NCBI GenBank assembly: GCA_030752795.1
Contig: JASMDM010000081.1
Location: forward strand, 32,118-96,117
Direction of reading: 5' to 3'
DNA from: SAR202 cluster bacterium
GTDB taxonomy: Bacteria; Chloroflexota; Dehalococcoidia; Lucifugimonadales; UBA1123
DNA: 64,000 nucleotides
The translations under genes and the position numbers were made by a program. The first letter of the stretch is position 1. Each line of letters opens with the position of its first letter. Shown piece by piece: positions 7,387 to 53,840 of the stretch. The notes below the pieces were generated by a model. It was given only the letters and a program-made list of their open reading frames with translations, was not told the origin of the DNA and searched no databases.

Positions 7387-7524
7387 CCATCGCCGTATCT
7401 GACCGATCCCACGATTCGAAGCTTTCGCGTTCGGGTCGAACACGGTATCCTAAGCCCTGGAATCGCATCGGTCCCGAAACCGGCCGTTCGCCCCTCGCAT
7501 CCGCGATCTTCGGAGGAGAACCCC

Positions 7525-8493
7525 TTGACCCAGACGCCTACGATTCACGACGTTATCCAGGCACGAAAACGCATCACCGGCTACGTCACGCGCACGCCGT
7601 TGCACCGATACATCGCCCTCGAGAAGCTTCTGGGCGCGTCCGAAGTGCACGTCAAGCACGAGAACCACCAACGCCTCGGAGCGTTCAAGATGCGAGGCGG
7701 CATCAACCTGCTGTCCCAGCTTTCACCGATGGAGCTCAGCCGGGGCGTCTCGACGGCATCCAGCGGGAACCACGGCCAGTCGATAGCGTATGCCGCGTCG
7801 GTCTTCGGAGCGATAGCCGTCGTCGGCGTGCCGGAGGGCGCGAATCCCGGCAAGGTGGAATCGATGCGCAATCTTGGCGCGGAGGTCATACACCACGGCG
7901 CGTTCTACGACGAGACCCGTGCGTACATGGACCGGCTATCGCGCGAGGAAGGCTACCGATACATCGACGCCGTCAACGAGTCGCAACTCGTCGCCGGAGT
8001 CGGGACGTACACCCTCGAGATCATGGAAGACTTGCCCGACGTCGACGTCATCATCGTGCCCGTCGGCGGGGGCAGCGGCGCGTGCGGCGCGTGCATCGTC
8101 GCCAAGTCCGTCAACCCGAACGTGCAGGTCATCGGCGTGCAAGCCGAGCAAGCCCCTGCGGTGTTCCTCTCCTGGCAGGAAGGCAAGGTCGTGCAAGCGC
8201 CAATGCGGTCGAAGGCCGAGGGCCTCGCCACCGGCACCGGCTTCGACCTCACGCTCGGCATCCTCCGCGAACACCTCGACGACTTCATCCTAGTAACCGA
8301 TGACGAGATGGACCAGGCGATCGTCCACCACCTCCGGATGACACACAACCTCACCGAGCACGCCGGCGCGGCGTCGCTGGCCGGCGCCGTCAAGATGAAA
8401 GACCGCCTCGAAGGCAAGAAAGTCGCCCTCATCATGAGCGGCGGCAACGTATCGCTCGAACACCTGAAAGCGGCACTCGACAAATACGGATAG
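7525..8493 (+). CDS. threonine/serine dehydratase-like PLP enzyme
   Basis: PLP lysine motif RLGAFKMRGG, SSGNHGQSIAYAA, glycine loop PVGGGSGACG. Confidence 0.92.
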   Translation: MTQTPTIHDVIQARKRITGYVTRTPLHRYIALEKLLGASEVHVKHENHQRLGAFKMRGGINLLSQLSPMELSRGVSTASSGNHGQSIAYAASVFGAIAVVGVPEGANPGKVESMRNLGAEVIHHGAFYDETRAYMDRLSREEGYRYIDAVNESQLVAGVGTYTLEIMEDLPDVDVIIVPVGGGSGACGACIVAKSVNPNVQVIGVQAEQAPAVFLSWQEGKVVQAPMRSKAEGLATGTGFDLTLGILREHLDDFILVTDDEMDQAIVHHLRMTHNLTEHAGAASLAGAVKMKDRLEGKKVALIMSGGNVSLEHLKAALDKYG

Positions 8494-8883
8494 GCGTTGC
8501 TGATCGCGTCGTCTTCCGATCAATCGGAAGCCTGCCATAGGGCCGCAGTCGGTGGATCAACGAGCCCGGACAAAACCCGGACCTAGATACTTCGAGCTTT
8601 ACGGAATTGGAGTGGAGCGAAACCGCGTCGAAATGGAGTCCAGGGGCAGAGCCCCAGCGGGTTCTAGGGTGTCCCTAGGGTTCATACAGTCCTAAAATAC
8701 CTTCGGGGGCGGGTGGGACAGATCTACCTTCATAACAAGACCCCTTAGGCGTACCTCTGGACCGCCGGTAATTCTCCTGCGAAGAGCACCGCTTTACCGA
8801 ACTGATTCACTGTCCGCAACGCGGGCATATCCATGATAACGAAGAGCCAGGTTGTTGACCCCGAGTACAAAAGGAGCCACGAC

Positions 8884-11536: not shown

Positions 11537-11979
11537 GGCCGATCTCCTTGCTGGTTTACGAGTGCGGGAAGCGTACCAGCGAGGACGGGCGCAGGCAAGC
11601 GGGAGCGGCGGGCGGCGGGTAGCGCTCAGCAGTCAGCCTTCAGCGGTCAGCGGGATTGTCGGCATCGAGGTGGTTCGACAGTTCCCGAGAAAGCCGGGAT
11701 CCTGATGCGTCGGGACTTCCAAGTAGCAGCGCCTCATTTCGCCATCCTGAGCCACAGCGAAGGACCTGGTTGTATGCGAAAATTGTCTCCCTGCGGGGAC
11801 CGAGATTCTTCGTCCTTCCGCACGCGGAAGGATCAGAATGGCGACACTTCAAGCGCCGTTTCTACCTCATGCGTTGTCCGTTACGCGGACATGATCCCGA
11901 TTGCATCGGGACTCAATACGAACGGACTGGGGCGGGCGGATCGAGCGAGCTGACGATTGTTTCGCTTTGTCGCGACCAG

Positions 11980-12942: not shown

Positions 12943-14964
12943 ATGGACCCGGGCGATATCCTTGTTGTTCAGCTCAGCGGCGGTCCCGGATTAGGCCGGC
13001 TCGTCGACATGGACTCGCAGCGCATTCGAATCGCCATCGGCCGGAACCGCGAGGCGCGATTGCCGTTCGCGCGTGTGTTGCTCGAGACCGGCCTGTCGGC
13101 GAGCAGTCACGACGAAGTCGAGAGTTTGACGCGCGAGTCGGAAGCGGTCGCGGCTCGCGTCGATCTCGAGGAGCTCTGGGACATCGTGTGCGACGACGGC
13201 GATTCCATGGCACTCGCGGACATCGCCGAACTCTACTGGAGCACGACGACTCCGGCTCAACTGGTCGGCTTGATGCTGCACCTCTCTCGGGACGATCTGC
13301 GGTTCGCGAAAGACGGCGCCGAGTACGCTCCCCGATCTCGCGACGACGTGGCTGAGCTCGAAGCCCGGAAACTCCGTCGCGAACGCAACCGCGAAGAGGG
13401 TGAGGCGTTGGGCAGCGACCTCGGCGCGGGCAAACTTCCCCCGGACCTGAGCTCACATCAAATCAACCAGCTCGACCAACTCAGGGGTCTTGTCCTGTAC
13501 GGAGACGACTACACGCGAGCCGGCGCCGCGAAGAAGTTCCTCGAATCGTTCGCGGGCAGTGCCAGAGACTCTCAACGCGCAGCGTTCATGGCGCTCACGA
13601 GAGCCGGATACATCAACGAAGATGAGTGCCTCGACCTCGAACGAGCGTCGATTCCGATCGAGTTCGACGAAGCCACGGTGGCCGAAGCTGACGCGATTGC
13701 AGTCGCCCCGCCTCTCGAGGCTCCGCGACGACGTGACCTGACCGGACTTGAAGTCGTCACCATCGACGACAAGGGGACGCGAGATCGCGACGACGGGCTG
13801 TCGATCGAGATCGAATCGAGCGATGCCGGTTCAGCGACGGTGTACAAAATCGGCGTCCACATCACAGACGCGGGCGCGGTGGTTGAGCGCGAGTCGGCTC
13901 TCGATGTCGAGGCCGATCGGCGTATGTCTACCTTGTATCTGCCCGAGCGAACCATCTCGATGCTGCCGCCTTCCGTCAGCGCCGATAAAGGCAGTCTCAA
14001 CCCAGGACAGCAACGCGCCGCACTGAGCGTGATGGCACAGCTGGACTCAGAAGGCGAAATCCTGGACTGGGAGGTTGTGCCGTCGGTGGTCGAAAGCCGG
14101 GCGGCGCTCCCTTACGAGGAGGTCGACGCGGCGCTTACGAATGCTGATGCTCCGATGCACGAATCGCTGACGGTGCTGGAGACCCTCTCGCGGGCAATGC
14201 GCACGAGGCGAGAAGCGGCGGGCGCACTGAATCTCGAGCGGGACGAGCTGTCGATCAAGGTGTCCGATGACGGAGACGTGTCGGTCCGGGTTGTTGCGCG
14301 GGCGGCGCCGGCGCGGAGCATGGTCGCCGAGTACATGATCCTGTGCAACTCGCTGTTGGCGGAGTTTTGCAAGAAGAACGAATTGCCCGCGCCATATCGA
14401 TCGCAAAAGGCGCCGGACGTTCGGGACGTGATCGCGCAAACGCCCGAAGGCCCGTTGCGCTGGTATCAGATCGTGCGCAAGATGGCGCCGGCCACGATCA
14501 ACACCGAGCCGGGGGCGCATGGCGGCTTGGGCGTGTCCGCGTACATCCAAGCGTCATCGCCGTTGCGGCGCTATCCGGATCTCGTGGTCCAGCGGCAGAT
14601 CTCGCACTTTTTGGCGACGGGTGAACATCTCTACGACGAGGAAGCCATCGCGTCGGTGGCACAGCGCGCGGACGTGCAGATCCGTGAGCTCGGGCGCTTG
14701 GAGGAGCAGCGACGGACGTACTGGCTGCTCAAGTACCTCGACCGCCAAAGGCAAGAACTCGAAGAGATGGGCGAGGAAAGCCTATTCGACGCTGTCGTGC
14801 TCGAGAACGCCCCAAACCGAGCCGGTTCGCTTGAGCTGAACGACTATCCGTTCAGGGTCCGCGCCGCGTTGCCCAGCACCGCCGAACCCGGCAGTACGGT
14901 GACTCTCAGGCTGCATGGCGTCGATCTGTGGCGCCGAGTCGGCCAGTTCGTGGTGGCGCAGTAA
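12943..14964 (+). CDS. RNase II/RNB domain ribonuclease
   Basis: VTIDDKGTRDRDDGLSIEIE catalytic Asp cluster; RRYPDLVVQRQISHFL; ATG 12943. Confidence 0.93.
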   Translation: MDPGDILVVQLSGGPGLGRLVDMDSQRIRIAIGRNREARLPFARVLLETGLSASSHDEVESLTRESEAVAARVDLEELWDIVCDDGDSMALADIAELYWSTTTPAQLVGLMLHLSRDDLRFAKDGAEYAPRSRDDVAELEARKLRRERNREEGEALGSDLGAGKLPPDLSSHQINQLDQLRGLVLYGDDYTRAGAAKKFLESFAGSARDSQRAAFMALTRAGYINEDECLDLERASIPIEFDEATVAEADAIAVAPPLEAPRRRDLTGLEVVTIDDKGTRDRDDGLSIEIESSDAGSATVYKIGVHITDAGAVVERESALDVEADRRMSTLYLPERTISMLPPSVSADKGSLNPGQQRAALSVMAQLDSEGEILDWEVVPSVVESRAALPYEEVDAALTNADAPMHESLTVLETLSRAMRTRREAAGALNLERDELSIKVSDDGDVSVRVVARAAPARSMVAEYMILCNSLLAEFCKKNELPAPYRSQKAPDVRDVIAQTPEGPLRWYQIVRKMAPATINTEPGAHGGLGVSAYIQASSPLRRYPDLVVQRQISHFLATGEHLYDEEAIASVAQRADVQIRELGRLEEQRRTYWLLKYLDRQRQELEEMGEESLFDAVVLENAPNRAGSLELNDYPFRVRAALPSTAEPGSTVTLRLHGVDLWRRVGQFVVAQ

Positions 14965-14977
14965 GTCACGAATGGCT

Positions 14978-15000
14978 TGGTCCTTCCGGCGGAAGGACCA
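14978..15000. repeat. hairpin repeat TGGTCCTTCC-ggc-GGAAGGACCA
   Basis: Perfect 10-bp inverted repeat just after the RNB gene stop. Confidence 0.7.
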
Positions 15001-15216
15001 GAGCACCGGCTTATGCCCGGTGGTGGCCTTGGCGTTAGGCTCAGCCTGGGCGGGGAAGCTTGGCCGTAATGGTCATCAACCAAATATGTTGTGCCTAACG
15101 CTCCTCGCGATGCTGGGCATCCGTCCATGGTGAGCCACGCACCCATCCGTTCGCCCTGAACAACATCATGTCCGACGATCGGACAAAGTATGAGGCAGCA
15201 ACGACGCCTCAACATA

Positions 15217-15249
15217 ATGTCATTCTGAGGCCGCACCCGAAGAATCTGG
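15217..15249. repeat. dispersed repeat atgtcattctgaggccgcacccgaagaatctgg, copy 1
   Basis: 31/33 identical to 29793..29825. Confidence 0.8.
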
Positions 15250-15438
15250 GGCCCCGCAGGCATTCAATTTTGACGCTGTTACTTGGAAGCTTGTCGAAGG
15301 GCCGCCCACACGCAAGTGTCACGTGATCCGTTACGGTCATTAACCCGATGTGCAGCTCAACGTTTCTTAACATGCCGGGTGGTCTGGAGAAAAGAGTCGT
15401 TTGGGTTGCTCAGGCAACAAGCCTTGTTCGGCGACCAG

Positions 15439-36988: not shown

Positions 36989-38626
36989 TTACGGATACCG
37001 CGAGAAGTCGAAGCCTTCCTTGACGATGCACTCGACCAGCGCGGGCGAGCCGGTCTTGGTGATCTCGATCGCTTGGGTTAGCGAAGGGACGATCTCGTCG
37101 GGTTTCTCGACGCGGACCGCCCATCCGCCCAAGGCCTCGGCCACCGCTCGGTAGTCGCCGCCCTGATACACGGAGCCATACTTCTCGATCGCCATCGGCA
37201 TCGTGTCCCGCTCGATGGCCATTGCGCCGTTGTTGAACACGATTGTCAGGATGCCGATGTTGTTCCGGGCAGCGGTCTCGAGGTCCATTCCGACCATGCC
37301 GATGGCGGCGTCGCCCATGATGTTGATGCAAAGTTTATCCGGCTCGGCCAGCTTCGCGCCCATCGTGATGCCAAGCCCGTAACCGAGTTGCGTCGATTTG
37401 CCCCAGCCCATGTAAGAACGGGGCGCGACGCTCTCCCAAAAAGGCGTGAGCTGGTCGCGCGGGCTTCCGGCGTCGTGAGTGATGATCGTGTTCGGCCGGT
37501 CCACGAGACGCATCAGGTCCCAGATGATTCGGTACTGGTTCATCGGCGTCTCGTTGGATGTGAACTGCGGCATCCACTCGTCCAGCCATTCCTTCTTGAC
37601 CGCCTGGACAGCGGCGGCGGTTGCATCGTCGTTGAGATTGCCGACGCCGCTTGTTCGGGAATTGATCTCAGCGATCAACGCCAGAAGCGTGAGCTTGGCG
37701 TCGCCGATAAGCGCCATGTCGGCGGCATAGTCTTTGTGTACGTCCATCGGGTCGTTGGTCGAGTGGATGATGACCTTGCCCGCTGGGATGGCCTTCGCGT
37801 AGTTGGATCGAGCGAAGCTGCATCCGATTCCGAACACGACATCTGCCTGGGCAAGGAACACGGAGATCGGCTTTGTCGTGGAGACCGCCGACGCTCCGAG
37901 AGACAGCGGGTGATTTTCAGGGAAGCCGCTTTTGCCTGCCATTGTCGTCATCACCGGCACCTGCAGCAACTCCGCGAGCTGCTCGAGTTCGGCCGTCGCT
38001 TCTGCGTACATCACACCCTGGCCCGCGTGGATCACGAGGTTCTTGGCGTTCAGCAGCGCCGTTGCGACCTCGCTGACCTCTTGAGAATCGGGCGCTGACC
38101 GGTTAGAAGTCACGGGACTGTATTCCAAGGCTCCGGGATACTCGGCTGCTCCGACATCGGTGGGCATTTCGACGAGCACCGGTCCACCCTTTCCGGTCCG
38201 AAGGTGGTAGAACGCGCGGCGCATGAGCTCGGGCACGCGTTCGATCCGGTTGACCTGCGCGGCCCATTTGGTTACGCGCTCGTAGTGAGGAACGGCGAAG
38301 AAGTTCGGGTCGACGCCCAGACGATCTGTCGCTGAACCGCCGGGAAGCAACAACACCGGAACGTTGTCGCCGAAGGCTTGGATCGCGCCCGGCAACGAGT
38401 TCTCGGAGCCCGGTCCCTGCTGCATCGAAAACACGCCCAGGCGCTTGCCGTTGGTCGTGCGACTGATGCCGTCCGCGATCGCGGCACCGATACGCTCCTG
38501 ACGGCACACGATCGGCCTGATGTTTAGCCGCGCGACAGCGTCGATCAGCGGCTGGCTCGGGAACGCCGCCAGAAACTCGGTTCCCTCTCGTTTTAGTATC
38601 TCGGCAACTGCTTGGACGCCGTTCAT
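36989..38626 (-). CDS. thiamine-pyrophosphate enzyme (acetolactate synthase-like)
   Basis: MNGVQAVAEILKREGTEFLAAFPSQPLIDAV...QERIGAAIADGISR; TPP motif MGDAAIGMVGMDLETAARNNIGILTIVFNN. Confidence 0.9.
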   Translation of the reverse strand: MNGVQAVAEILKREGTEFLAAFPSQPLIDAVARLNIRPIVCRQERIGAAIADGISRTTNGKRLGVFSMQQGPGSENSLPGAIQAFGDNVPVLLLPGGSATDRLGVDPNFFAVPHYERVTKWAAQVNRIERVPELMRRAFYHLRTGKGGPVLVEMPTDVGAAEYPGALEYSPVTSNRSAPDSQEVSEVATALLNAKNLVIHAGQGVMYAEATAELEQLAELLQVPVMTTMAGKSGFPENHPLSLGASAVSTTKPISVFLAQADVVFGIGCSFARSNYAKAIPAGKVIIHSTNDPMDVHKDYAADMALIGDAKLTLLALIAEINSRTSGVGNLNDDATAAAVQAVKKEWLDEWMPQFTSNETPMNQYRIIWDLMRLVDRPNTIITHDAGSPRDQLTPFWESVAPRSYMGWGKSTQLGYGLGITMGAKLAEPDKLCINIMGDAAIGMVGMDLETAARNNIGILTIVFNNGAMAIERDTMPMAIEKYGSVYQGGDYRAVAEALGGWAVRVEKPDEIVPSLTQAIEITKTGSPALVECIVKEGFDFSRYP

Positions 38627-38800
38627 GCTGGTTTCTCCTTTGTTCATGCGCCAGATGACTGTTCGGGTGACGAGAGCGTCGTCGTCGATCACTCTTGTCC
38701 GTTCGTCCTGAGGCCGTCGAAGGATCTTGGTGGGACAGGTTTCGCCGACCGCGAGCGGCCCCTCGAGAATGCTCCCGCGTCCCGCCGGTATCTCGGGACG

Positions 38801-38830
38801 GGTGGTTCGACAGGCTCACGACGAACGTAG
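38801..38830. repeat. dispersed repeat gtggttcgacaggctcacgacgaacgtag, copy 1
   Basis: 28/29 identical to 60191..60219; antisense reads TFVVSLSNH. Confidence 0.85.
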
Positions 38831-38976
38831 AATCAATCCCGCCGCGAACGTGACATCGACGAGCAACGTGTGCAGCCCATCGCACGACAGGCTCGCCACG
38901 CACGATGTATCAACGACTTCGTTCGCGCCGAGCCTGTCTCCGGTTACGTAGTTGCCGCTTGCGTTGCGGCACTAGC

Positions 38977-40611
38977 CTAGAAGCGCGACCTCTTCGACTC
39001 GAAGCCCGCGTTGACATCGATCAACACCGTCTTGCCGTCGGCGTTGAGCTTCTGCGCTTCGACGAGGGCAGGGCCCATCTCGTCGGGGGTCTTCACGATG
39101 AGACCGGTCGCGCCCATCGCCTCGGCCATGTCGGCGTAATTGCCGGTCATGTTGGTCACGCCGAAGCGCTCCTGCGCGGCCTCGTAGCCCGACGGGTAGG
39201 TCGCCATGCCCGCGTTGTTGAGCACCACGGTCGTGATCGGCGCCCCGATGCGAGCCGACACTTCGATGTCGATCGATGAGTGGCCGAACGCGGCATCGCC
39301 CATGAAGTTCAGGCAGAACTTGTCAGGGTTCGCGATTTTGGTTCCGATCATCAGAGGAATGCCGAATCCGAGGTGCGTGGTCTTGCCCCAGCCCACGTAG
39401 CCGCCCGGTTTGGTGGCATGGTAGAAGGGGATGATCGTGTCCCTGGGCGTGCCGGCGTCATGCGTGACGACGCTGTTGGCTTTGTCCAGGTTCGTGTCGA
39501 TCTCGTGAATGACCCTGTAATGGTTCAGCGGATTCTCGTCGGAGGTCAGAAGAGGGGTCCAATCGGCCATCCACTTCGTGCGCAGCTCAGCGATTCGCGC
39601 CGCGGCGTCAGTCGTCCTGCCGCCTTCGCCGATGGCGGCTTTGACCTCGTCGAGGAGCATCTGGATTGTGACTTTGACATCGCCGGGCAGACCGACTTCG
39701 ACCGACTCATCCTTGTTGATTTCGTCGATGTTCTCGGTGTTGTGAATGATGGTCTTCCCCGGAGGAATGGCCTGTCCGTAGTTGGTCTTGGTCAGGCTGG
39801 TGCCCAGCCCTAGCAGTACGTCGCTCTCCCGAAGCCAGGTGCTGGCGGGGAGGGTAGTGGCACCGCTGCCCGCGCCCAACGACAGCTCATGATCCTCTGG
39901 GAATGCGCTCTTGCCCTGCATCGTCGTGTACACGGGCACGCCGGTCAGTTCGGCTAGCTCCTTGAGCTCGGCGCAGGCGCCGCCGAAGATGACCCCGCCG
40001 CCGACCCAGATCACCGGGTTTTTGGCCGCGAGGAAGATCTTCACGGCGTCTTTGACATCCGAGAGCGACGGCGAGACGATAGTTCGCTTGGCTGGCTTGT
40101 AATTTTCGATGACCGAATCCGGAACTTCGGCGCCGGCGATGTCGCCGGGCGTCTCGACGGTCATGGGGCCGCCGCTGCCGTTGCGCATGCCGTGGAACGC
40201 TCGTCGCAACACCGCTCCGATTTGGCCGGAGGCCATGATGGGCTCCGCGTGTTTCGAGATGGGGCTGTACACGTCGGAAACCAAGAAGCTTGGCCGTACG
40301 TTGCGGCTGGCGAGTGGCGATCCGCCCGGAAGCAGCAGGATTGGGATGTTGTCCGCGTACGCCTGGGCGATGCCGCCCATCGCGTTTTCGGCGCCGGTCC
40401 CGCCCTGTGTGATGGTCACGCCGAATTTCGTGCGTCCGCTGGTTCGGCTATAGCCGTCGGCGGCCATGATCGCGCCGCGCTCGGTTCGAAACATGTCCAG
40501 TCGGATGCCCTCGTTGGCGACCGCTTCGATGAGAGGGTTAGAGGGGAAGCATGAAACCCATTCAACGCCCTCGAGTTTAAGAATCTTCGCTATGGCTTGG
40601 TTACCGTTCAA
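38977..40611 (-). CDS. thiamine-pyrophosphate enzyme (acetolactate synthase-like), paralogue
   Basis: MNGNQAIAKILKLEGVEWVSCFPSNPLIEAV...; MGDAAFGHSSIDIEVSARIGAPITTVVLNNAG. Confidence 0.9.
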   Translation of the reverse strand: MNGNQAIAKILKLEGVEWVSCFPSNPLIEAVANEGIRLDMFRTERGAIMAADGYSRTSGRTKFGVTITQGGTGAENAMGGIAQAYADNIPILLLPGGSPLASRNVRPSFLVSDVYSPISKHAEPIMASGQIGAVLRRAFHGMRNGSGGPMTVETPGDIAGAEVPDSVIENYKPAKRTIVSPSLSDVKDAVKIFLAAKNPVIWVGGGVIFGGACAELKELAELTGVPVYTTMQGKSAFPEDHELSLGAGSGATTLPASTWLRESDVLLGLGTSLTKTNYGQAIPPGKTIIHNTENIDEINKDESVEVGLPGDVKVTIQMLLDEVKAAIGEGGRTTDAAARIAELRTKWMADWTPLLTSDENPLNHYRVIHEIDTNLDKANSVVTHDAGTPRDTIIPFYHATKPGGYVGWGKTTHLGFGIPLMIGTKIANPDKFCLNFMGDAAFGHSSIDIEVSARIGAPITTVVLNNAGMATYPSGYEAAQERFGVTNMTGNYADMAEAMGATGLIVKTPDEMGPALVEAQKLNADGKTVLIDVNAGFESKRSRF

Positions 40612-40766: not shown

Positions 40767-41906
40767 CTATCCCAGGTACTGCCGATAGACCCGACCCGCC
40801 TTTATCGTGGCTACGTGTCCGAGGCGTCGGGCGCCCTCCACCGACACGCCCTTGGAGTCGGTGAACGCAAACTTCCCGTCCGCGAGCCGCGCGACGACGG
40901 CATCGCCTTCCGCGCCCGGTTTCAGCGTGCCCAGGCTGCCGCTGTCACCGATGATCTCGGCCGTGGCGGACGTGCTGAGACGGATCACCTCGTCAAGCGA
41001 CATCCCCAGGTGCAGGAATTTCGACAGCGTTTCGAGTTGGTTGTGCACGGGCCCTTCGATGTTGTGAACATGGAGGTCGCTGCTGATGTTGCTAGGCATG
41101 AATCCTTGAGACAAGGCCTTCTCCGCCACGTCGAAAGAGAAGCTGCACGCGCCGTGGCCGATGTCGAACACGACGCCTCGATTCTGCGCCTCGACGATGC
41201 CGGGCAAAATGCGTCCTGAGTCGTCCAGGATCCCGTGATCGTTGCCATGGTAGGCGTGAGTAACCACGTCGCCGGGCCGGAGCATCGAGACGAGGTTCTC
41301 CATCGGCGTGCGAGTGTTCCCAACGTGGATCATCACGAAGGAGTCGAGCGCCTCAGCAGCCTCGATGGCCCGCTCGAGCGCGGCTACATCGTGGTCCGCG
41401 GCCAGCGGTCTGCTGACCCGGACCTTGATCCCGAGAATGCGGTCGCGATTCAGCTTTCCGGCCGCAACCGCCTCTTCGACGTCTGCCCAGCGCAGATCCT
41501 CGAGCTCACCGATCTTGGGCGAGATCATGCCCATCGACGAGATGTTCAGGAGAGCGAACAATCGGGTCGTGGACTGCTCGATCACGTACCGGCGAAACGC
41601 CGGGAACGTCTACGCTCCGGCGGAACCGGCGTCGACCGCGGTTGTGACGCCTTGTGCGACCTGAGTCGAGTCGGCGTCGATGCCGTAGTGGCCCACGCCC
41701 CAGTACACGTGGACGTGGAGATCCACCAGACCCGGAGCGACGATAAGGCCGGACGCGTCGAGCACCTCGTTGGCCATGCCGTCCGAGATGCTGAGCTCGG
41801 CCGCGGCGACTTCGCCGTTTGCGAACGCGACGTCTCGTCGGGCGTCCAACGATTGTGACGGGTCCACTACCGTGCCGTTTTTGACCAGAAGATCGTATTT
41901 GGCCAT
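40767..41906 (-). pseudogene. amidohydrolase/dihydroorotase-like deacetylase with in-frame TAG at 41610-41612
   Basis: [19 protein letters not shown]...[14 protein letters not shown]...[39 protein letters not shown]...; same frame on both sides. Confidence 0.8.
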
Positions 41907-42385
41907 TGCGCTTCTCCTGCAAAGGTGTTTGGGGGCGGATCGCGGGATGCTCGGCTTCGCCAGGCATTGTACCTCCCACACATATTCGGTTGTCCTGACC
42001 GCCGAGCCGGATATCGCACGAATCCGACTAGGTGACGATGGCGGCGGGCGCAACCCGGCAATATGAGCTCACCTTCGGCAGTCGCATCGACCCCGATTAA
42101 GGCCTCGGCTCGTCGCGTGATCGGCGCGCATCCTGTACGCTCGATTCGCTTCCGTGGTACATTAGCGTCAGCCCTCCACAATTTCGCAGCCGGTCCGCGA
42201 CATGTTCCGCGGACCGCCAGGGATCATTTTCGAGCGTGCACGGCGTGGCTACGCTTTACTTGACCGCTCGGAGGTTCGCAAAGGCCGACTACGTCAAAGC
42301 GCTGAGTGCGGATGGAGAGGCTTACCGGTTCAGGCAACGGCCGAGGGCGACAGCGCCGTCCCGGTCCAGTGAGAAAGAAGAGTTT

Positions 42386-44134
42386 ATGGCAATTGATGCC
42401 AAGGTCATGCCGGAGCAGCGACTTCGGGCACTCACGGAGTGTATCAAGAACAAAGGATTCGCCCGCATCCTGGAGACCCACAGCGGTCTGAGCGGCATCG
42501 TCGCGGAGAACGCTGCGATCGAACATGAGGGAAGCAGGTTGGAGTTCGACGGCTTCTGGGAAAGCAGTCTAACCGACTCCGCCACGAAAGGCTTTCCTGA
42601 CGCCTCCATCGTGGGCAACGACTCTCGCGTGCACACGATCGACGAGATACTCAACGTCACCAGCAAGCCCATCGTCGTCGACGGCGACACGGGCGGTGAC
42701 CCGGCGCAGTTTCGATATCTGGTCAGGCACCTGGAACGCCTGGGCGTATCCGCAGTCATCATCGAAGATAAGGTGTACCCAAAGCGGAACAGCCTGGACG
42801 CGTCCGCGAGTCAGTCACTGGAAGACCCCGAAGTGTTCGCCAACAAGATTCGAGCCGGAAGAGAAGTCCGGGCAACAGAGGAATTCATGGTGATCGCCCG
42901 CCTGGAGAGCCTGATCGCGGGCGTAGGTCTCCAGGACGCGCTTGAGAGGGCAGAACAGTACATCGTGGCTGGCGCTGACGGCATCATGATTCACACCAGC
43001 AAACGCGATCCGGAAGAGATTCTTGAGTTCGCAAAAGCGTACGAACCTCTTTGCGCCAGGCTGGGGAGGCGCCCCGTTCTGGTAAGCGTCCCGACGACGT
43101 ACAACTCGATTTCCGACACCGAGCTCGTCGCCAACGGGTTCAACGTCATCATCCACGCCAACCACATGCTGAGGGCGTCGCACAAGGCGATGAAAGAGAT
43201 TGCTCAAACGATTCTCGAGAGCAACAGGAGCCTGGAAGCTGACCCGTTGATCACGTCCACCGCCGAGATCTTCGCCACGGTTGGATTCGATCTTGTCACC
43301 GAGCGAGACAGGGAGACGTCTCAGGTCCAGCGCCTTAGCGCGATCATTCCCGCGGCAGGTAAGGACGCGGCGTTCCCGGATGCGCCAAAGTCACTGATTC
43401 CAATCGCCGGCCGGCCGGTCATCGATTACCAGTTGGAGGCCATCAGCAAAGCCGGCATGAACCAGATCGTGGTGGTCAGAGGCCACGAAGGCCTGCAGTT
43501 CGACACCAGGCCGACTGACGAAAAGATCACATTCTGCGAGAATCCGAACTACGAAGACACCTTCGACCTTTTCTCGCTGTTCCAAGCTGACAAGTACATG
43601 CAACGGGGATTCGTACTCATCTACTCGGACATCCTGTTCGATCAAGATATCCTTCAGAGGCTCATCGACACCGACGAGGATATCGTCCTAGCGCTGGACG
43701 GCTCATATCAATACCACAGGCATGAAATCGAAAAACGTCTGGACCTTGCGGTAAGCGCGAACAGGCGCGAGTCGCATCATCGGAGCCTACAGCCACCGGC
43801 GCTGATGGAGATCGCCCGACTAGGCAAGAACATCGACCGAGAAGCGGCGGAATTCGAATTCGTTGGTTTGGCCTACTTCTCCGAACGCGGCGCCGAGGCG
43901 TTGCGCCGAGCGTACTACGAGTGCCAACGAACGGCGGCCGGGCCGTTTCACGAGGCCGCGTTGTTCAAGATGGCGTCCATAACCGATTTGTTGCAGGAAC
44001 TGATAAATCGAGATGTCGCAGTCCACGGACTCGAAATCCATAAGGGATGGCTGGAAATTCATAACCAAAAGGATGTCGCGGTCGCCGAGAGGGAGGTACT
44101 GTCTTTGGTGTCCGCCGAATCCGCCGCGGACTGA
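42386..44134 (+). CDS. aepX: phosphoenolpyruvate mutase fused to nucleotidyltransferase (PntC/MobA-like) domain
   Basis: PepM signature EDKVYPKRNS, metal-site region DGDTGGDPAQF; C-terminal LSAIIPAAGKDAAFPDAPKSLIPIAGRPVIDYQLEAI...KGWLEIHNQKDVAVAE; ATG 42386 after gagaaagaagag. Confidence 0.93.
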   Translation: MAIDAKVMPEQRLRALTECIKNKGFARILETHSGLSGIVAENAAIEHEGSRLEFDGFWESSLTDSATKGFPDASIVGNDSRVHTIDEILNVTSKPIVVDGDTGGDPAQFRYLVRHLERLGVSAVIIEDKVYPKRNSLDASASQSLEDPEVFANKIRAGREVRATEEFMVIARLESLIAGVGLQDALERAEQYIVAGADGIMIHTSKRDPEEILEFAKAYEPLCARLGRRPVLVSVPTTYNSISDTELVANGFNVIIHANHMLRASHKAMKEIAQTILESNRSLEADPLITSTAEIFATVGFDLVTERDRETSQVQRLSAIIPAAGKDAAFPDAPKSLIPIAGRPVIDYQLEAISKAGMNQIVVVRGHEGLQFDTRPTDEKITFCENPNYEDTFDLFSLFQADKYMQRGFVLIYSDILFDQDILQRLIDTDEDIVLALDGSYQYHRHEIEKRLDLAVSANRRESHHRSLQPPALMEIARLGKNIDREAAEFEFVGLAYFSERGAEALRRAYYECQRTAAGPFHEAALFKMASITDLLQELINRDVAVHGLEIHKGWLEIHNQKDVAVAEREVLSLVSAESAAD

Positions 44135-44182
44135 AGGGCGCCGCAACATTCATCGATACAAACACCATGATGTGGAGGCAAA

Positions 44183-44677
44183 ATGGATGCCCAAACCTTT
44201 TGGGAGGCCTTGAAAGGCCGTGGATTCACCTTTTTCGCTGGCGTGCCCGATTCCACCTTCGGTTCAGCTTACAAGACGATGATGACAGACCCCGACATTC
44301 GCTACGTTCCAGCGGTGCGCGAAGACGTTGCGCTGGGTGTGGCTAGCGCCGCCTACTTCACCGGGCGACGCGCCGGTGTAATCATGCAAAATTCCGGAGT
44401 CGGCAACGTCGTCAACCCGTTGACTTCGTTCAGCCTGATGTACAAGATACCGGTGCTGCTTATCGTCGGTTGGCGCGGCTACGGCGGACCACCCAACGAT
44501 GCACCGGAGCACTGGATCATGGGCGCAAAATCGCCGGAGTTCTTCGATCTGCTGGAGATGCCCCACGAAACGCTTGAGCCGGACAACCTCGAATCCGCTC
44601 TCGATCGACTCATCGCGGCCATGGACGAGGGCTCGACCCCGGGAGCGTTGCTGGTGCGTGCAGGGGTGATCGAATGA
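44183..44677 (+). CDS. aepY: phosphonopyruvate decarboxylase alpha subunit (N-terminal TPP PYR-like domain)
   Basis: GRGFTFFAGVPDSTFGSAYKTM...REDVALGVASAAYFTGRRAGVIMQNSGVGNVVNPLTSF. Confidence 0.88.
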   Translation: MDAQTFWEALKGRGFTFFAGVPDSTFGSAYKTMMTDPDIRYVPAVREDVALGVASAAYFTGRRAGVIMQNSGVGNVVNPLTSFSLMYKIPVLLIVGWRGYGGPPNDAPEHWIMGAKSPEFFDLLEMPHETLEPDNLESALDRLIAAMDEGSTPGALLVRAGVIE

Positions 44678-45258
44678 TAGATCGATACCAGGCCATCCAA
44701 CAGATCCTCAAGCGCGTGAAACCTGACGACCTCGTTCTGAGCACCACCGGGATGATCTCCCGCGAGGTGTTCACGGCAGACGATCGCACCGCGAACTTCT
44801 ACATGATCGGCTCAATGGGACTTTTGTCCTCGTTCGGGCTGGGCTTGGCGTTGCTCTCTCCCGAGCAAAAAGTGTACGTGCTCGAGGGCGACGGAAGCGC
44901 CTTGATGAGCTTGGGCACGTTGCCGCTTATCGCCACGGAGCATCCGGCAAATCTGGTTCACATCATCCTGGACAACGAGGCGTACGAATCGACAGGCGCT
45001 CAGCCGTCGATTAGCTCCAACGTCGAGCTCGCCGATCTCGGCCGAGCGGCGGGCTATCCGCATGTGACCCGAGTGGACGACATCGAAGCCCTGGAGGGTG
45101 CGATTTCGGAGTGCCAAGGCGACAGCGGCCCCTACTTGGTCGTGGTCAAGTCGGGCATCGCTCCGGTCGAAGGCATCGGACGCGTCTCCCATTCGCCCAC
45201 CGAGATACGGGACCGCTTCAAATCCTCCGTGCTGAAGGAGAACGAGGCGCAGTGCTAA
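44674..45258 (+). CDS. aepY: phosphonopyruvate decarboxylase beta subunit (TPP-binding domain)
   Basis: STTGMISREVFTADDRTANFYMIGSMGLLSSFGLGLAL...VLEGDGSALMSLGTL; ATGA overlap with the alpha subunit. Confidence 0.88.
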   Translation: MIDRYQAIQQILKRVKPDDLVLSTTGMISREVFTADDRTANFYMIGSMGLLSSFGLGLALLSPEQKVYVLEGDGSALMSLGTLPLIATEHPANLVHIILDNEAYESTGAQPSISSNVELADLGRAAGYPHVTRVDDIEALEGAISECQGDSGPYLVVVKSGIAPVEGIGRVSHSPTEIRDRFKSSVLKENEAQC

Positions 45259-46322
45259 TACTCTCACCAGGTCCAGCCAACATAACCGATGGGGTCCGTG
45301 CGGCGCTGACTCAACCGGACATCGGTCATCGGGACTCGGAGTTCCGCGCGATTCTTCGGGACGTCCGAGCCATGCTGCTTGAGGCATGTGGTGTGTCGTC
45401 CGGGTATAGATGCGCTGTCATGACCGGATCAGGGACCACCGGCATCGAGAGCTCGTTGACGGCGATGAAGGGTGTTACGAATGGAATCTTGATACTCGCA
45501 AACGGCTCCTATGGCGAGAGGGCCGCGAAAGTCGCATCGGTTTTCGACCTCCCGCACGAGACCATGAACTTCGGTTGGACCGGCCAACTGGACCTCGACG
45601 AGATCGACGCCAAATGCCGCAGCACCGACGCTGACACGGTCTATCTGATTCACCACGAGACAACGACCGGCGTCCTGAACCCATTGAAGGAGATCGCGGC
45701 TATCGGGAAGCGGCACAACAAGTGGGTGATGGTCGACGCGGTCAGCAGCGTGTGCGGCGAAGAGCTCGACATGGCCGGCTGGGGCGTTGACCTGATCATG
45801 GGCTCGGCCAACAAGTGCATTCGCGGCGTCCCGGGCGCGGGCTTCGTCGTCGTCAACGAGCAGTTGGCCAGCGTGATGCAAGATCGACGACAGGCAACGT
45901 TCGTAACCGACCTTGTCTCGCACCTGGAGCAAGAAGAAAAAGGGGAAACGCCGTTCACTCCGGCAGTCCAGGTCTTTGCCGCGTTGCGAGTGGCCCTAGA
46001 GGAACTGCTGGAAGAGGGCGTCGAAAACCGGATCGCGCATTACGAACGCATAGCCACAGCACTGAGAGACGGCCTCGCCGAACTCGGTTTGGAACTCCTC
46101 CTCCCTCGGGAGTGGTACTCCAACACCATGACTTCGATCAACATGCCGGAAGGCTTCACGTACGACCGCCTGCACGACGAGCTGAAGGATCAGGGCTATC
46201 TCATCTACAACGCCCAGGGTTCATTCCAGGAGAAGATGTTCCGCCTCGGGACCGTCGGTGTGATGACCGAAGATGATATCCGAGGATTCCTGAACGCGCT
46301 GGGCAGTGTGCTCGCGAAATGA
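45252..46322 (+). CDS. 2-aminoethylphosphonate--pyruvate transaminase
   Basis: LILSPGPANITDGVRAALTQPDIGHRDSEFRAIL; PLP Lys motif MGSANKCIRGVPGAGFVV; GTG 45252 overlaps the upstream stop. Confidence 0.92.
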   Translation: MLILSPGPANITDGVRAALTQPDIGHRDSEFRAILRDVRAMLLEACGVSSGYRCAVMTGSGTTGIESSLTAMKGVTNGILILANGSYGERAAKVASVFDLPHETMNFGWTGQLDLDEIDAKCRSTDADTVYLIHHETTTGVLNPLKEIAAIGKRHNKWVMVDAVSSVCGEELDMAGWGVDLIMGSANKCIRGVPGAGFVVVNEQLASVMQDRRQATFVTDLVSHLEQEEKGETPFTPAVQVFAALRVALEELLEEGVENRIAHYERIATALRDGLAELGLELLLPREWYSNTMTSINMPEGFTYDRLHDELKDQGYLIYNAQGSFQEKMFRLGTVGVMTEDDIRGFLNALGSVLAK

Positions 46323-47050
46323 TGGCGATCATTCTGGTGGCGGGAGTGGGACGCCGGTTGCGCGGCCAGACTAATGAGCCGAAGTGTCTCTTGAGCATCG
46401 GCGGCCGGTCGCTCATCCATCGATACCTGGACATCCTGGCCGAACCCGACAGCGGTGTCGCAAAAGTCGGAATGGTCGTCGGATATAAGGGCGATCTCAT
46501 CGTGAGTCACGTGCAGGAACATGCATTCGGCGGCGCGGTCGCCTATGCCACGAATCCGGACTACGAAAAGGGAAGTGCACTGTCGCTTCTGACCGCGTAC
46601 GAAAACTTCGAGATCGACGGCGACATGATGCTCATGGACGGCGACGTCTACTTCGAGCCGGATGTTCTGCATCGGCTGCTAGCGTCGGCGAACGCCAACA
46701 GCATGCTTGTCGATCCTTCTTCGGTGAACACCGGCGAAGAGATCATGATGGGCGTCATCGATGAACGCGTCGCCGCCGTGGGGCGAGGCATGGAAGGCGC
46801 TTTCGACGTCCATGGCGAATGGATCGGATTTATGAAGACGGACACAGATGGGACCCGAGAATTCCTGAGCGCGGTGAATAGGTTAGTCCAAGAACAGGGA
46901 GACGGCGTCGGCTATGAAGACGCCATCCAAGGTGTCTGTGCCGCTGTTGCCATGGGGTATGAGCTAGTCGACGACCTGAGATGGACCGAGATCGACACCC
47001 CTGAGGATGTCGCCAAAGCAGTGTCACTCGCGGAGCAGGCCTCCGTTTGA
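46319..47050 (+). CDS. sugar-phosphate/AEP-type nucleotidyltransferase
   Basis: MMAIILVAGVGRRLRGQTNEPKCLLSIGGRSLIHRYLDIL; MLMDGDVYFEPD; WTEIDTPEDVAKA; ATGA overlap. Confidence 0.88.
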   Translation: MMAIILVAGVGRRLRGQTNEPKCLLSIGGRSLIHRYLDILAEPDSGVAKVGMVVGYKGDLIVSHVQEHAFGGAVAYATNPDYEKGSALSLLTAYENFEIDGDMMLMDGDVYFEPDVLHRLLASANANSMLVDPSSVNTGEEIMMGVIDERVAAVGRGMEGAFDVHGEWIGFMKTDTDGTREFLSAVNRLVQEQGDGVGYEDAIQGVCAAVAMGYELVDDLRWTEIDTPEDVAKAVSLAEQASV

Positions 47051-47371
47051 GCCTTGCCGCGATGGAACGGCTGGCTGCATGATCGCCATGCATCGGAATA
47101 CGCTTCGCGAATCGATGGTGAGCTTGGTCGTGTTCGCAACATCGCCCTCCAGCCGATCACGGGCGGCTCTTCCGGAGAATTGCTCGCTAGGCCGAATTGT
47201 GCTGTTGAAGTCTTCCCGAGATCTCGGTCGGCGGCGAGAATCGAAGACGGTGTTGTGTACGCCCGAATGACTAAGTCGAAGCTGTCACCCAGATCCGTTG
47301 ACTCCCTTCAAGGGCGCACGGAGCACACCGAAAACCTATAGATAAATCGAAACAGTACTGCGGAGGAACAT

Positions 47372-48097
47372 TTGACAATCTACGACGCGATTGGCAGTGC
47401 CTATGATCTTGTGTACCCCGACACGGCCGAGAAAGTGCCTTTTGTCACAAAGCTTCTGAGAACATATGGTAAACATTCGGTTCTTGAATTAGGGATCGGG
47501 ACGGGGCTTTTTGCCGTGCCATTGCATGAGGCTGGATTTGACATGGAGGGACTGGAGATCAGTCAGGTGATGATTGACGTTGTTGGCCAGAGAGCGCCCA
47601 GACTCAAGATTCATAAAGGGGACATGCGAAACTACACGATAAATAGGCGATATGATGCTATTCTCGCCCTGAGCTCGGTCCTCGTTTTCGTAAACAGCGA
47701 ACGAGAGATTCAACAATGCCTGGAACGTTGCTACCAGCATTTGGAATCGAAAGGGATCCTCTTGTTGGAGTTGCCAAATCACTCGGTTGAGATTGGTCTG
47801 AGCAACAATAACCAAGAGGTGTATCATAACGCGGATCAAAGCATGATTGTCGTGATCCAAAGCGCGGTTGAAGGTCATGATTGGAACGAGACATGGCACG
47901 TGTTCAGGCGCGATGGAACAGCGTTTAACCATGAGAAAACGGTCTGCCAGGAATACCTCTATTCACCCACCTCACTGGCCGCTCAGCTTGAAGGAGTCGG
48001 CTTTAAGATCGTCGAGACTCATGGCGATTTGTTGGGGAGCCCTTTTGACGAATCGAACTCCTGGAGGCGGGTCCTCATTTGTGAAAAAAGAGATTGA
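47372..48097 (+). CDS. class I SAM-dependent methyltransferase
   Basis: YDLVYPDTAEKVPFVTKLL...SVLELGIGTGLFAVPLHEAGFDMEGLEIS; TTG start after cggagga. Confidence 0.85.
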   Translation: MTIYDAIGSAYDLVYPDTAEKVPFVTKLLRTYGKHSVLELGIGTGLFAVPLHEAGFDMEGLEISQVMIDVVGQRAPRLKIHKGDMRNYTINRRYDAILALSSVLVFVNSEREIQQCLERCYQHLESKGILLLELPNHSVEIGLSNNNQEVYHNADQSMIVVIQSAVEGHDWNETWHVFRRDGTAFNHEKTVCQEYLYSPTSLAAQLEGVGFKIVETHGDLLGSPFDESNSWRRVLICEKRD

Positions 48098-48373
48098 CGG
48101 CTGAAAACCCGATTCCGAGCCTGGGCGGGCGACCCGTAATAATATGATCTGATGAGAACAACGATCCCAGATCCTGTTCTGGGCCAAGCAAGATCTCGAC
48201 AAGTCGGAATCTGGCACGGCATTGGAAATGGGTCCCAAGAACCAAGGCCGATGAACGGGCAAGAAACTTCTCAACGCGTTCGAGATGGTTGCTGTTTCGT
48301 GCCATGCTTTGGGGCGCCAGCCCGTTGCTAAGAATGTTCGTCGATCCGGCCGATAGTAGATTTAGGGGGATAA

Positions 48374-49255
48374 ATGGTTTCTGAAAACGGATCAGATGAG
48401 GCAGCACTGCTGAAATCGTTCGAAAACCTACAAAGCCTTGACCCGACAGGGGCCAAACTGAGGCTGAAAGAAGCCAAGGCAGTCATGGATGGATTCGGGA
48501 TTCCGTTTTGGCTTCGGCAGGGCACCTGTCTTGGCGCCGTCAGGGACAACGACTTCATCCCATGGGACGATGACATCGACCTGGGCTGCGTGATCGGCCT
48601 GAACGGATTCACGGAAGACCAGATCGACCCCATAGTCGACGGCTTCCGAGAACGGGGATATTTCGTTGAAGTGGAATACTCCGACCGCGAAATCTCCGCT
48701 TGCATGATAAAGAATTCGATTCGAACAGACCTGACATTCTTTCACATCATCGACGACGCAATATTCCATTTTCCGATGATCTGGATGCCCGCTCGATTGT
48801 TCGCCGACCTCAAACAGATCGAGTTTATGGGCGATAGCTATTTTGTGCCGAACCCGCCCGAAGAGTACCTGGGAACAAAGTACGGCCCGAACTGGACAAC
48901 CCCGAAACAAGACGGATACGAACTAGACGTTTTCGCGCAGATAGCGAAAGCGCCAGCCGCAATTCTCGAGACCGCTCCTGGGCATCCGCAGACCAAAATT
49001 CAGATTCTTGATCTGCATAACGAAATCGTCGCAGACGCTGAAGTGTCGATTGTCGGCGTGGATGACGCTCGCACCGACGGCGATGGCCGCGTGGAGTTCA
49101 ATCTGCCGTTCAAAGACTTCTACGCCGTGGTCATCCGTCATGGGGACCACGAAGAAATTCTATATCAAGAAATATTCACACCCGGGAAGACCTACGTCTA
49201 CACACCCGACCCCGCCAGGCCCAGCGGGCGGTACATCGCGATGCGCGAAGAGTGA
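48374..49255 (+). CDS. LicD-family phosphotransferase with additional C-terminal beta domain
   Basis: FWLRQGTCLGAVRDNDFIPWDDDIDLGCVIG; PPEEYLGTKYGPNWTTP; C-terminal VEFNLPFKDFYAVVIRHGDHEE extension. Confidence 0.88.
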   Translation: MVSENGSDEAALLKSFENLQSLDPTGAKLRLKEAKAVMDGFGIPFWLRQGTCLGAVRDNDFIPWDDDIDLGCVIGLNGFTEDQIDPIVDGFRERGYFVEVEYSDREISACMIKNSIRTDLTFFHIIDDAIFHFPMIWMPARLFADLKQIEFMGDSYFVPNPPEEYLGTKYGPNWTTPKQDGYELDVFAQIAKAPAAILETAPGHPQTKIQILDLHNEIVADAEVSIVGVDDARTDGDGRVEFNLPFKDFYAVVIRHGDHEEILYQEIFTPGKTYVYTPDPARPSGRYIAMREE

Positions 49256-51185: not shown

Positions 51186-53223
51186 ATGAAGGCGATTGGC
51201 AGGAGTTCACGAACATGGCGTACGAAGGCGGTCAGGTCGATCGAGGAGGCCGCCCGCGAAGGCGCAACGGAACTCGACCTTGAAGGGCATGGCTTGACAG
51301 AGTTGCCCTCGGAGATTGCATCCTTAACCGAACTCGAGACTCTAAACCTGAACGGAAATCAACTGACGGAGTTGCCCTCGGAGATTGCGGCCCTCACATA
51401 CCTCCGTACTCTGGACCTATCGAGAAATCAACTGACAGCTTTGCCGTCGGAGATCGCAGCCTTCACCAATCTCTGGATTCTGAGCCTGTCAAACAATCAA
51501 CCGACGGCATTGCCGTCGGAGATTGCAGCCCTCACCAACCTCCAGCATCTGGACCGGGATCGAAACCCGTTGATCTTCCCGCCACCGGCGATCGTCGAGC
51601 AGGGGCTGGGGGCAATCCACTCTTACCTCCACGAACAACAAGCCTCTGGGGGCCGCAGTGGGTCTCAAAGATACTTGTTGTAGGAGAGGGTGGAGTAGGC
51701 AAAACGTCCCTACTTTACGCGCTGCGGGGCGAACCGGTGTCTGAGCTAGAGGTGTCCACCCTCGGGATTGAAATCTCTCACGCAACCAATGATCTTGATC
51801 CGAGGGAAGTGCGGCCCTTCGAGGTGACGCACCCGACGGAACCAAGCGTCACGATGCAGCTCAATACCTGGGATTTCGGAGGACAGGACATTTACCATGC
51901 AACGCACCAGTTCTTCCTCACCGAACGCTCCCTGTTTGTGCTGGTGTGGAACGCCCGTTATGGGTACGAGCAGGGTAAGCTCTACGACTGGCTGGACACT
52001 ATCCAGGCCAAAGCGCCGAAGTCGCCCGTGCTGGTTGGTAGCGACCCATATCGATGAACGTCCCGTGGATATTCCGTTCGAGGACATTCAGCGGCGGTAC
52101 CCGCAGGTGGTGAGCCAACACCGTGGAGTCAGTAGCATCCAAGGCACGGGTATCGACGATCTGCGCGAAGCTATCACGGCCGTTGCCGCAGAGCTCCCGT
52201 TGATGGGCGAGTCCTGGCCTGAAAGCTGGCTGGCCGCGGCAGACGCCCTGCAGAAGCATGAAAGCCAATACGTCACGCCAGAAGTCATGCGTCAGACGAT
52301 GATCGACAAAGGCGTTAAACCGGAGGACACAGGAATCCTGGCCCGATGGCTCCATGACCTCGGTGACATTCTGTATTTCCAGGACGACGAGTACCTGGAC
52401 GATGTGGTGATGCTGAACGCGGACTGGGTCACCGACCACGTGTACCGAGTGCTGGATCACGGAGAGATCGACGAACGAGGGATATTCACTCGGGACCACA
52501 TGAATGACATCTGGCGCGACCTGGACCCCGGCGTCCGCGGACTGTTCCTGCGGTTGATGGAGCAGTTCGACCTGTCTTACAGGGCGTTTGCGAATCGGGA
52601 CATCAGCATTGTCGTCGAGAAGCTGTCCTCAGACCCGCCGAGCCACTTCGCGGATGTGTAGGCATACGACGCGGGAACTCTGGCCTGCAACCGCGCAGCT
52701 TTCCATGATCTTCGACCTCAAGACAACGTTGCCAGCAGGCATCCCCACCCGGTTCATCGCCAGGCAGCACCGCTTCACCACCGATACCCACTGGAAACTC
52801 GGCGCCGTGCTGGCCGACGGCGCGGAACGCAAGCACATCGCACTGGTCCGGGCGCTTCCTCAGGAACGACAGGTGCGTCTCACCATGCGTGGTCCGAACC
52901 CGCACAACTTCTTCACCCTTCTTCGAGACGGCGTAGAAGTGACGTTGCAAAGATTCCCTGGCTTGGATGTTCGACGGTGGTTGCCGTGTCCAGGTCACGA
53001 CGGCAACCCGTGTGATTATCTCTTCGAGTACGACCGTATCCTGAGGGCCATCGAACATGGCACTGAGGTCACCGCGGTCCAATGTCAGGAGACTTTTGAG
53101 GACGTTTCGGTGGGTGAACTCCTTTATGGACTCCACTGGATAACCAATGACCGAGTCATCACGCGGATCGACGAACTGGCAGACCAGATCCGAGCTGAAT
53201 TCGCCTCCGCACAAAAACCATGA
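51186..53223 (+). pseudogene. Roco-family protein (LRR-Roc GTPase-COR) split by several frameshifts
   Basis: LRRs LTELPSEIAALTYLRTLDLSRNQ; P-loop GEGGVGKTSLLYAL; WDFGGQ; COR-like NADWVTDHVYRVLD; frames 0/2/0/1 across 51186..53223. Confidence 0.8.
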
Positions 53224-53840
53224 CGGAGGAATTCGATGACGTGCGCGCCCTTCTCCAACGCGAGTTCGCCAACTCCTATCGGCGAGACCAGGCGGTGCTG
53301 GATACCACGTGTCCCAATGTGTTTACCCTGGAGCCTGTTGGCAGAAGCCAGTGGCGTAAGCGGATTCAAGGCGAGCGGATGACGTTGCATCTTTACTATC
53401 AGGAGCCGGGAGTGTGGCACCCGACCGTGGACGGTGGACGCTCTGAGATCGATCGTCCCGCCGAGTGGCTTGGGGTGGTGGCGCCCCACGTTCAACGGCT
53501 TGTGACGGCATTGAAGTACACGGCGCCCGTGATCGGTCCGTGGCTCGGTGTTGCAACACCGGACTTTCAGAACATGTTCAAGAATCAGCTCGATCTGATG
53601 AAGGAACTGGTCAACAAACTCCCGGAAGTCGAGGGTCGCCCGGAGCGTGATTTTCGCGATTACTCGGACAAGTCCCACGATCCGCGCGACCCGATTGCAG
53701 GGTCAGCCCTGCGGGCTTTGCGACGATTTCTGGATGACAGTGACCCCGCCCATGGTTGGGGCGGTCTGAGCCGAACGATAACCCTTGAGGGCCACATCCT
53801 CTGGCTTTGCGATTACCACATGCGACAGTATCGGGACTGA
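53220..53840 (+). CDS. protein/domain that continues the Roco locus (ATGA-coupled)
   Basis: MTEEFDDVRALLQREFANSYRRDQAVLD...; begins in the 4-bp overlap with the preceding ORF stop. Confidence 0.55.
   Translation: MTEEFDDVRALLQREFANSYRRDQAVLDTTCPNVFTLEPVGRSQWRKRIQGERMTLHLYYQEPGVWHPTVDGGRSEIDRPAEWLGVVAPHVQRLVTALKYTAPVIGPWLGVATPDFQNMFKNQLDLMKELVNKLPEVEGRPERDFRDYSDKSHDPRDPIAGSALRALRRFLDDSDPAHGWGGLSRTITLEGHILWLCDYHMRQYRD

Follow-up and report, generated by a model that had tools for sequence, protein, structure and literature searches.

Phosphonyl-tailoring (Pnt) clusters, including clusters with fused and separate nucleotidyltransferases and LicD-like genes, were described by Rice et al. in 2019 (PMC6697681). 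In the passages of that paper on which we draw throughout, the Pnt clusters of Treponema denticola, Olsenella uli, and Atopobium rimae encode a phosphoenolpyruvate (PEP) mutase (PepM) with a fused nucleotidyltransferase, a phosphonopyruvate decarboxylase (Ppd), and a 2-aminoethylphosphonate (AEP) transaminase (AEPT); a further PntC nucleotidyltransferase is encoded one or two genes away, and genes for LicD-like proteins or glycosyltransferases are close by. Here, we analyzed a 64,000-nucleotide stretch (the window) of a SAR202 cluster bacterium draft genome of 3.5 Mb in 116 contigs, in which a locus at positions 42386 to 49255 (plus strand) has the same components: the PepM motif, Ppd and AEPT, a nucleotidyltransferase both fused to PepM and nearby, and LicD nearby. 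Unlike the clusters of that paper, it belongs to another phylum, has a split Ppd and a lineage-specific methyltransferase, and carries Asp rather than Glu at position 104 of its stand-alone nucleotidyltransferase (NT2). We consider it probable, at roughly 75%, that this is a Pnt cluster for making AEP, which would be activated by NT2 and transferred by LicD, and that the domain fused to PepM is not the cytidylyltransferase.

Other known systems share parts of this design. Fom1 (fosfomycin) is also a PepM-nucleotidyltransferase fusion, but its PF01467 domain is N-terminal and active on hydroxyethylphosphonate (HEP), whereas the domain here is C-terminal, belongs to PF12804, and lacks the arginine of the pyrophosphate (PPi) loop. 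In the LicC/LicD phosphocholine pathway, CTP activation precedes transfer by a LicD-family enzyme, as predicted here; unlike that pathway, this cluster has no choline kinase, and the donor is predicted to be CMP-AEP.

Gene organization and the predicted route to AEP

The locus consists of seven uninterrupted open reading frames (ORFs) in one direction, as the original prediction had stated, with junctions, in gene order, of +48, −4 (ATGA), −7 (GTG overlapping the stop), −4 (ATGA), +321, and +276 bp. The tight operon, which had also been predicted, is formed by the first five genes only, namely, the PEP mutase-PF12804 fusion, the two Ppd genes, AEPT, and NT2; the methyltransferase and LicD genes are separate, behind the 321- and 276-bp gaps. 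Compared with the closest genome (G001, here the sister), six ORFs, including LicD and with the fused domain scored apart from PepM, have ratios of nonsynonymous to synonymous substitution rates (dN/dS) of 0.03 to 0.13, and these are therefore real genes rather than chance ORFs. Scans for promoters and terminators found fewer sites in the locus sequence than in shuffled sequence.

The first gene encodes PepM (residues ~1 to 315; 42386 to 43330) followed by the nucleotidyltransferase domain (residues ~316 to 582; 43331 to 44134). The PepM half matches PF13714 (E value, 3.3e-47), scores above the cutoff of the NCBIfam PEP_mutase equivalog TIGR02320 (328.3 versus 319.55), and carries the EDKXXXXXNS motif as EDKVYPKRNS at residues 127 to 136. 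With this diagnostic motif present and with far lower scores for the hydrolase and methylisocitrate lyase models, we rejected a phosphonopyruvate hydrolase or isocitrate lyase type of enzyme, and the first assignment of this protein to PEP mutase stands. Ppd is split over two genes that match complementary halves of TIGR03297: an N-terminal (alpha) subunit (44183 to 44677; PF02776; model positions 1 to 155; E value, 8e-38) and a C-terminal (beta) subunit that binds thiamine pyrophosphate (TPP) (44674 to 45258; PF02775; model positions 171 to 358; E value, 1e-57). AEPT (45252 to 46322; GTG start; PF00266) has TIGR03301 (PhnW-AepZ) as its best family (E value, 6.8e-98) and is 93.5% identical to the sister copy. 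Profile searches for the predicted families (PEP_mutase, the TPP halves, PF00266, PF12804, and PF04991) were all matched.

On the strength of families, motifs, and conserved synteny, which agree with the route first proposed from PEP to AEP, a pathway from PEP through phosphonopyruvate, phosphonoacetaldehyde, and AEP to CMP-AEP is well supported. The PepM half would isomerize PEP to phosphonopyruvate, the two-subunit Ppd would remove CO2 to yield phosphonoacetaldehyde, AEPT would aminate the latter to AEP, and NT2 would combine AEP with CTP to form CMP-AEP. The families, motifs, operon, and conservation are supported by sequence and comparison; we infer what the product is, that AEP is converted to CMP-AEP, which acceptor is used, and what, if anything, the methyltransferase contributes.

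In the sister genome, genes for the PepM fusion, both Ppd subunits, AEPT, and NT2 occur in the same order at 72 to 94% identity. The contig ends ~340 bp past NT2, and the sister LicD is on a different contig, which itself breaks off ~200 bp upstream of LicD; the predicted linkage in relatives is thus seen for five genes, and linkage of all seven is not shown there. A short repeat is common to the sister contig end (L034, 4 to 150) and window positions 11758 to 11812 and 15146 to 15269, and it is probably the cause of the contig break.

The two nucleotidyltransferases

The original prediction had both nucleotidyltransferases activating the phosphonate. Both are present, one of them as the domain fused to PepM, but they are not equivalent. 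By fold, the fused domain (PF12804; E value, 3.5e-8) is a relative of the CTP:AEP enzyme of T. denticola, Tde-PntC (PDB 6PD1/6PD2), which is also the best solved relative of NT2 by sequence. An AlphaFold model of the fused domain (mean predicted local distance difference test [pLDDT] score, 86.5) has 6PD1 as its nearest solved structure (template modeling score, 0.72; E value, 5.8e-15), and we therefore regard the domain as a genuine relative whose loop has changed. Its sequence, PAAGKDAAFPDAPKSL, has no arginine where the GxG(T/S)R motif calls for one (Arg15 of Tde-PntC, in the PPi loop); also unlike Tde-PntC, it has no equivalents of Glu104 and Glu196 and hence no acidic amine pocket. The PK lysine, the SD motif, and GWxE are retained.

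We tabulated residues on Tde-PntC numbering for 23 fusions in which PepM comes first (15 from Chloroflexota, 1 from Lokiarchaeota, 3 from Gammaproteobacteria, 1 from Alphaproteobacteria, and 3 from Betaproteobacteria) and for 17 stand-alone NT2 proteins, drawing on 250 genomes of the order, one genome-contig scan, and plasmid records. An Arg15 equivalent occurs in none of the 23 fusions. The equivalent of Lys25 is present in 17 and replaced by Arg in the other 6, all from one Chloroflexota genus. All of the compared domains have the Asp of the SD/GD motif. The Glu that follows the conserved Trp is retained in the Chloroflexota and Lokiarchaeota fusions, with Asp, Gly, or Ser in Proteobacteria. 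In a fusion from Nanoarchaeota, where the domain is N-terminal, both Arg15 and Lys25 are retained. In genus g300 (L103 to L108), the PK lysine of the fused domain is also lost; in one of these clusters (L133), Ppd is directly followed by a CTP_transf_like gene (PF01467). No PepM-nucleotidyltransferase fusion was found in a phage collection, and a scan of viral contigs returned eight loci that match the PepM part only.

The domain has nonetheless been kept: its dN/dS against the sister (0.10) indicates purifying selection. In a tree, the PepM-first fused domains fall into two groups, and the approximately unbiased test does not reject a single origin (P = 0.31); from this grouping and the low dN/dS, we take the loss of the arginine to be old and the domain to have been retained since. 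In Tde-PntC, the R15A, K25A, and K153A variants each have <10% of wild-type activity (PMC6697681). Because the PPi-stabilizing arginine is lost and an acidic amine pocket is missing, the PepM-fused domain here is probably not the working cytidylyltransferase, and because it is retained under selection, a binding, regulatory, or scaffolding role is probable.

NT2 (46319 to 47050; PF12804) is stand-alone, whereas Tde-PntC is fused to AEPT in T. denticola. Its best PDB relative is 6PD1 (E value, 8.3e-9; residues 2 to 235), and its motif VAGVGRRL...PK (VAGVGRRLRGQTNEPK) has both Arg15 and Lys25, with R in place of the T/S of the GXG(T/S)R consensus before the arginine. Both residues are present in all 17 stand-alone NT2 proteins. 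Since the arginine on which Tde-PntC depends is missing from the PPi loop of the fused domain, NT2 is the likelier activating enzyme, probably a CTP:AEP cytidylyltransferase (PntC). Rice et al. assayed Ari1348, Tde1415, and Spn-LicC (PMC6697681). Formation of CMP-AEP was measured for Tde-PntC, in which Glu104 and Glu196 sit at the AEP amine. The corresponding motifs in NT2 are DGD and YE, i.e., Asp at position 104 and Glu at 196, a pocket that would fit an amino-phosphonate substrate. At position 104, NT2 proteins carry an acidic residue in all 9 clusters that contain AEPT; in all 6 that contain an alcohol dehydrogenase, the residue is Tyr or His.

We tentatively propose, at a little under even odds, that C-terminal PF12804 domains of PEP mutases are in general selected but catalytically altered non-transferases (e.g., sensors of CTP or CMP-phosphonate that control or channel PepM), that a separate enzyme activates the phosphonate, and that position 104 of that enzyme tells amino (acidic) from hydroxy (Tyr/His) phosphonates.

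LicD, the methyltransferase, and related loci

The LicD-family phosphotransferase (48374 to 49255; PF04991; E value, 2.4e-14) has a core with an IPWDDDxDL motif, and its model (pLDDT, 85) matches the fold of the CDP-ribitol phosphotransferase FKRP, including complexes with CMP and CDP-ribitol (E values, 6e-9 to 1e-7). FKRP shares the LicD-type core and is the best fold match; unlike FKRP, the protein here has a C-terminal transthyretin-like domain, with a weak match to CarboxypepD_reg. The LicD gene is 84% identical in the sister, where it adjoins the same downstream amidohydrolase gene. In two relatives (G042 and G004) LicD adjoins a CTP_transf_like cytidylyltransferase, which would be consistent with a cytidylylated donor. 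By its position, this LicD copy may use CMP-AEP, most likely transferring aminoethylphosphonate to a surface glycan or lipid. Family, fold, and conservation thus agree with the predicted transfer step; its linkage to the operon in the sister is lost at the contig break, and LicD also occurs in relatives where no pepM was found, in two cases beside the CTP_transf_like gene.

The S-adenosylmethionine-dependent methyltransferase gene (47372 to 48097; TTG start; PF13649; E value, 5.7e-12) appears optional and lineage specific. The gene postulated for an optional methylation is present, with weak similarity to glycine/sarcosine N-methyltransferase, and by its position it may have a part in the pathway; no orthologue was found in the sister genome (best identity, 28%), and the gene sits in a stretch without a match in the sister's flanks. 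The region showed no informative flanking repeats (one 14-nucleotide pair) and no second copy in the genome.

Related loci vary in what follows Ppd. Five relatives in the order (G024, G058, G052, G033, and G597) encode the PepM fusion and Ppd and then an iron alcohol dehydrogenase in place of AEPT (Pfam confirmed in G058 and G024 and judged by eye from sequence similarity in the other three), together with a second nucleotidyltransferase. A CDP-alcohol phosphatidyltransferase takes the place of the transferase in G058, G024, and G033 (Pfam confirmed in G058 and G033), and the combination suggests hydroxyethylphosphonate lipids. Stand-alone PepM occurs in G616 to G623, G041, and G095, where examined with an AEPT-like aminotransferase and in several cases then a methyltransferase. 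In G622 (contig L018) and G623, as at L023, the AEPT-like gene directly follows PepM with no Ppd between, and no close PpdB relative was found in either genome (best, 39 to 41% versus 71 to 75% in neighbors), which suggests phosphonoalanine or a different decarboxylase. The set of PepM fusion, Ppd, AEPT, and NT2 is also found in Lokiarchaeota, Gammaproteobacteria, and plasmids of Roseomonas, Mycetohabitans, and Cupriavidus (no Ppd annotation being available for Cupriavidus). The Lokiarchaeota cluster (L025) is flanked by two paralogues (7304 to 8542 and 13940 to 15175) that, by eye, look like TagB/TagF-type glycerophosphotransferases.

In the window, an amidohydrolase gene upstream of the cluster (40767 to 42053, minus strand) has an in-frame TAG at 41612 to 41610 that marks either a pseudogene or an assembly error; the sister copy (L034, 5473 to 6612) is fully open. 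Two adjoining TPP-dependent enzymes of the PRK06154 family, ~42% alike, are encoded at 36989 to 40611 (minus strand) and are present in the sister. Between the downstream amidohydrolase and position 54200, a leucine-rich-repeat and GTPase-like stretch (51186 to 53840) looks to have been inserted here or lost in the sister, where the flanks are ~50 bp apart (L084).

Alternative readings and significance

Several points weigh against the assignment of this locus to AEP tailoring through NT2 and LicD. AEPT scores under its curated TIGR03301 cutoff (328 versus 360.8 bits). The 23 fusions and 17 NT2 proteins are related sequences, for which the tree needs just one or two arginine-loss events, and the position 104 pattern comes from few independent lineages. 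The fused domain retains the catalytic Lys, Asp, and Glu, so that residual or altered activity is possible. LicD is multicopy, occurs also in relatives where no pepM was found, and lies 1.3 kb downstream of NT2, with the NT2-LicD linkage in the sister interrupted by the contig break.

One alternative concerns the transfer step: LicD and the methyltransferase would lie outside the phosphonate pathway, LicD would add another CDP-linked group to a glycan and owe its downstream place to chance, and a transferase encoded at some other site in the genome would use CMP-AEP. This is doubtful, though with a real minority chance: besides the LicD paralogues in relatives where no pepM was found, two further copies exist in this genome on C97, the 321- and 276-bp gaps set these genes apart, and neither a sister methyltransferase nor a sister match to the methyltransferase-region DNA is seen, but the orthologous LicD keeps its downstream neighbor in the sister, LicD co-occurs with cytidylyltransferases in other relatives, and LicD-like or glycosyltransferase genes lie near other Pnt clusters (PMC6697681). 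It is unlikely that both nucleotidyltransferases are active cytidylyltransferases, working on one phosphonate each (compare the Fom1 cytidylyltransferase acting on HEP) or in turn. The purifying selection on the fused domain (dN/dS, 0.10), its retained Lys, Asp, and Glu, its PntC-like fold, and the arginine of the Nanoarchaeota fusion would suit such a scheme; the absence of Arg15 from 23 of 23 PepM-first fusions, at a position where alanine leaves Tde-PntC with <10% activity (PMC6697681), and the further loss of the PK lysine in most members of one Chloroflexota genus argue against it.

We regard as quite improbable a product that is N-methylated AEP, up to the phosphonate analogue of phosphocholine, made by the methyltransferase ahead of the NT2 step. 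The resemblance to glycine/sarcosine N-methyltransferase points that way, as does the Asp where Tde-PntC has Glu104, which NT2 shares with the phosphocholine enzyme LicC and which would leave more room; however, this Asp is also present in the NT2 of the sister, in whose assembly no methyltransferase orthologue was found, and the resemblance is weak and extends across the family. Transaminases of the PhnW type also act in catabolism, and the NCBIfam transaminase models include catabolic PhnW, but a locus for phosphonate breakdown is very improbable given a genuine PepM with its diagnostic motif and a split Ppd in one operon. We set the catabolic reading aside, as PhnJ was not found in the assembly by a search that recovers E. 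coli PhnJ as a control.

The preferred reading, a Pnt cluster in which NT2 activates AEP, places phosphonate tailoring in the genome of an uncultured Dehalococcoidia lineage. The literature that we searched yielded no report of phosphonate tailoring in Dehalococcoidia; neither of two marine phosphonate surveys mentions Chloroflexi, and a SAR202 paper treats phosphonate use only. The cluster is a real, selected example of an already described kind, and the new point is that the fused domain lacks a key catalytic arginine, so that a separate enzyme probably activates the phosphonate. PF12804 fusions make up about one-third of PepM (Rice et al. 2019, PMC6697681), and in the passages of that paper on which we draw we found no comment on the catalytic intactness or the PPi loop of the fused domain. 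Such domains have so far been tallied as signs that a phosphonate pathway includes nucleotidyl activation; should C-terminal PF12804 domains indeed lack transferase activity, that tally would need revising and a regulatory or structural role would become testable, and the pocket residue of NT2 may offer a simple sequence predictor of aminoethyl- versus hydroxyethylphosphonate products.

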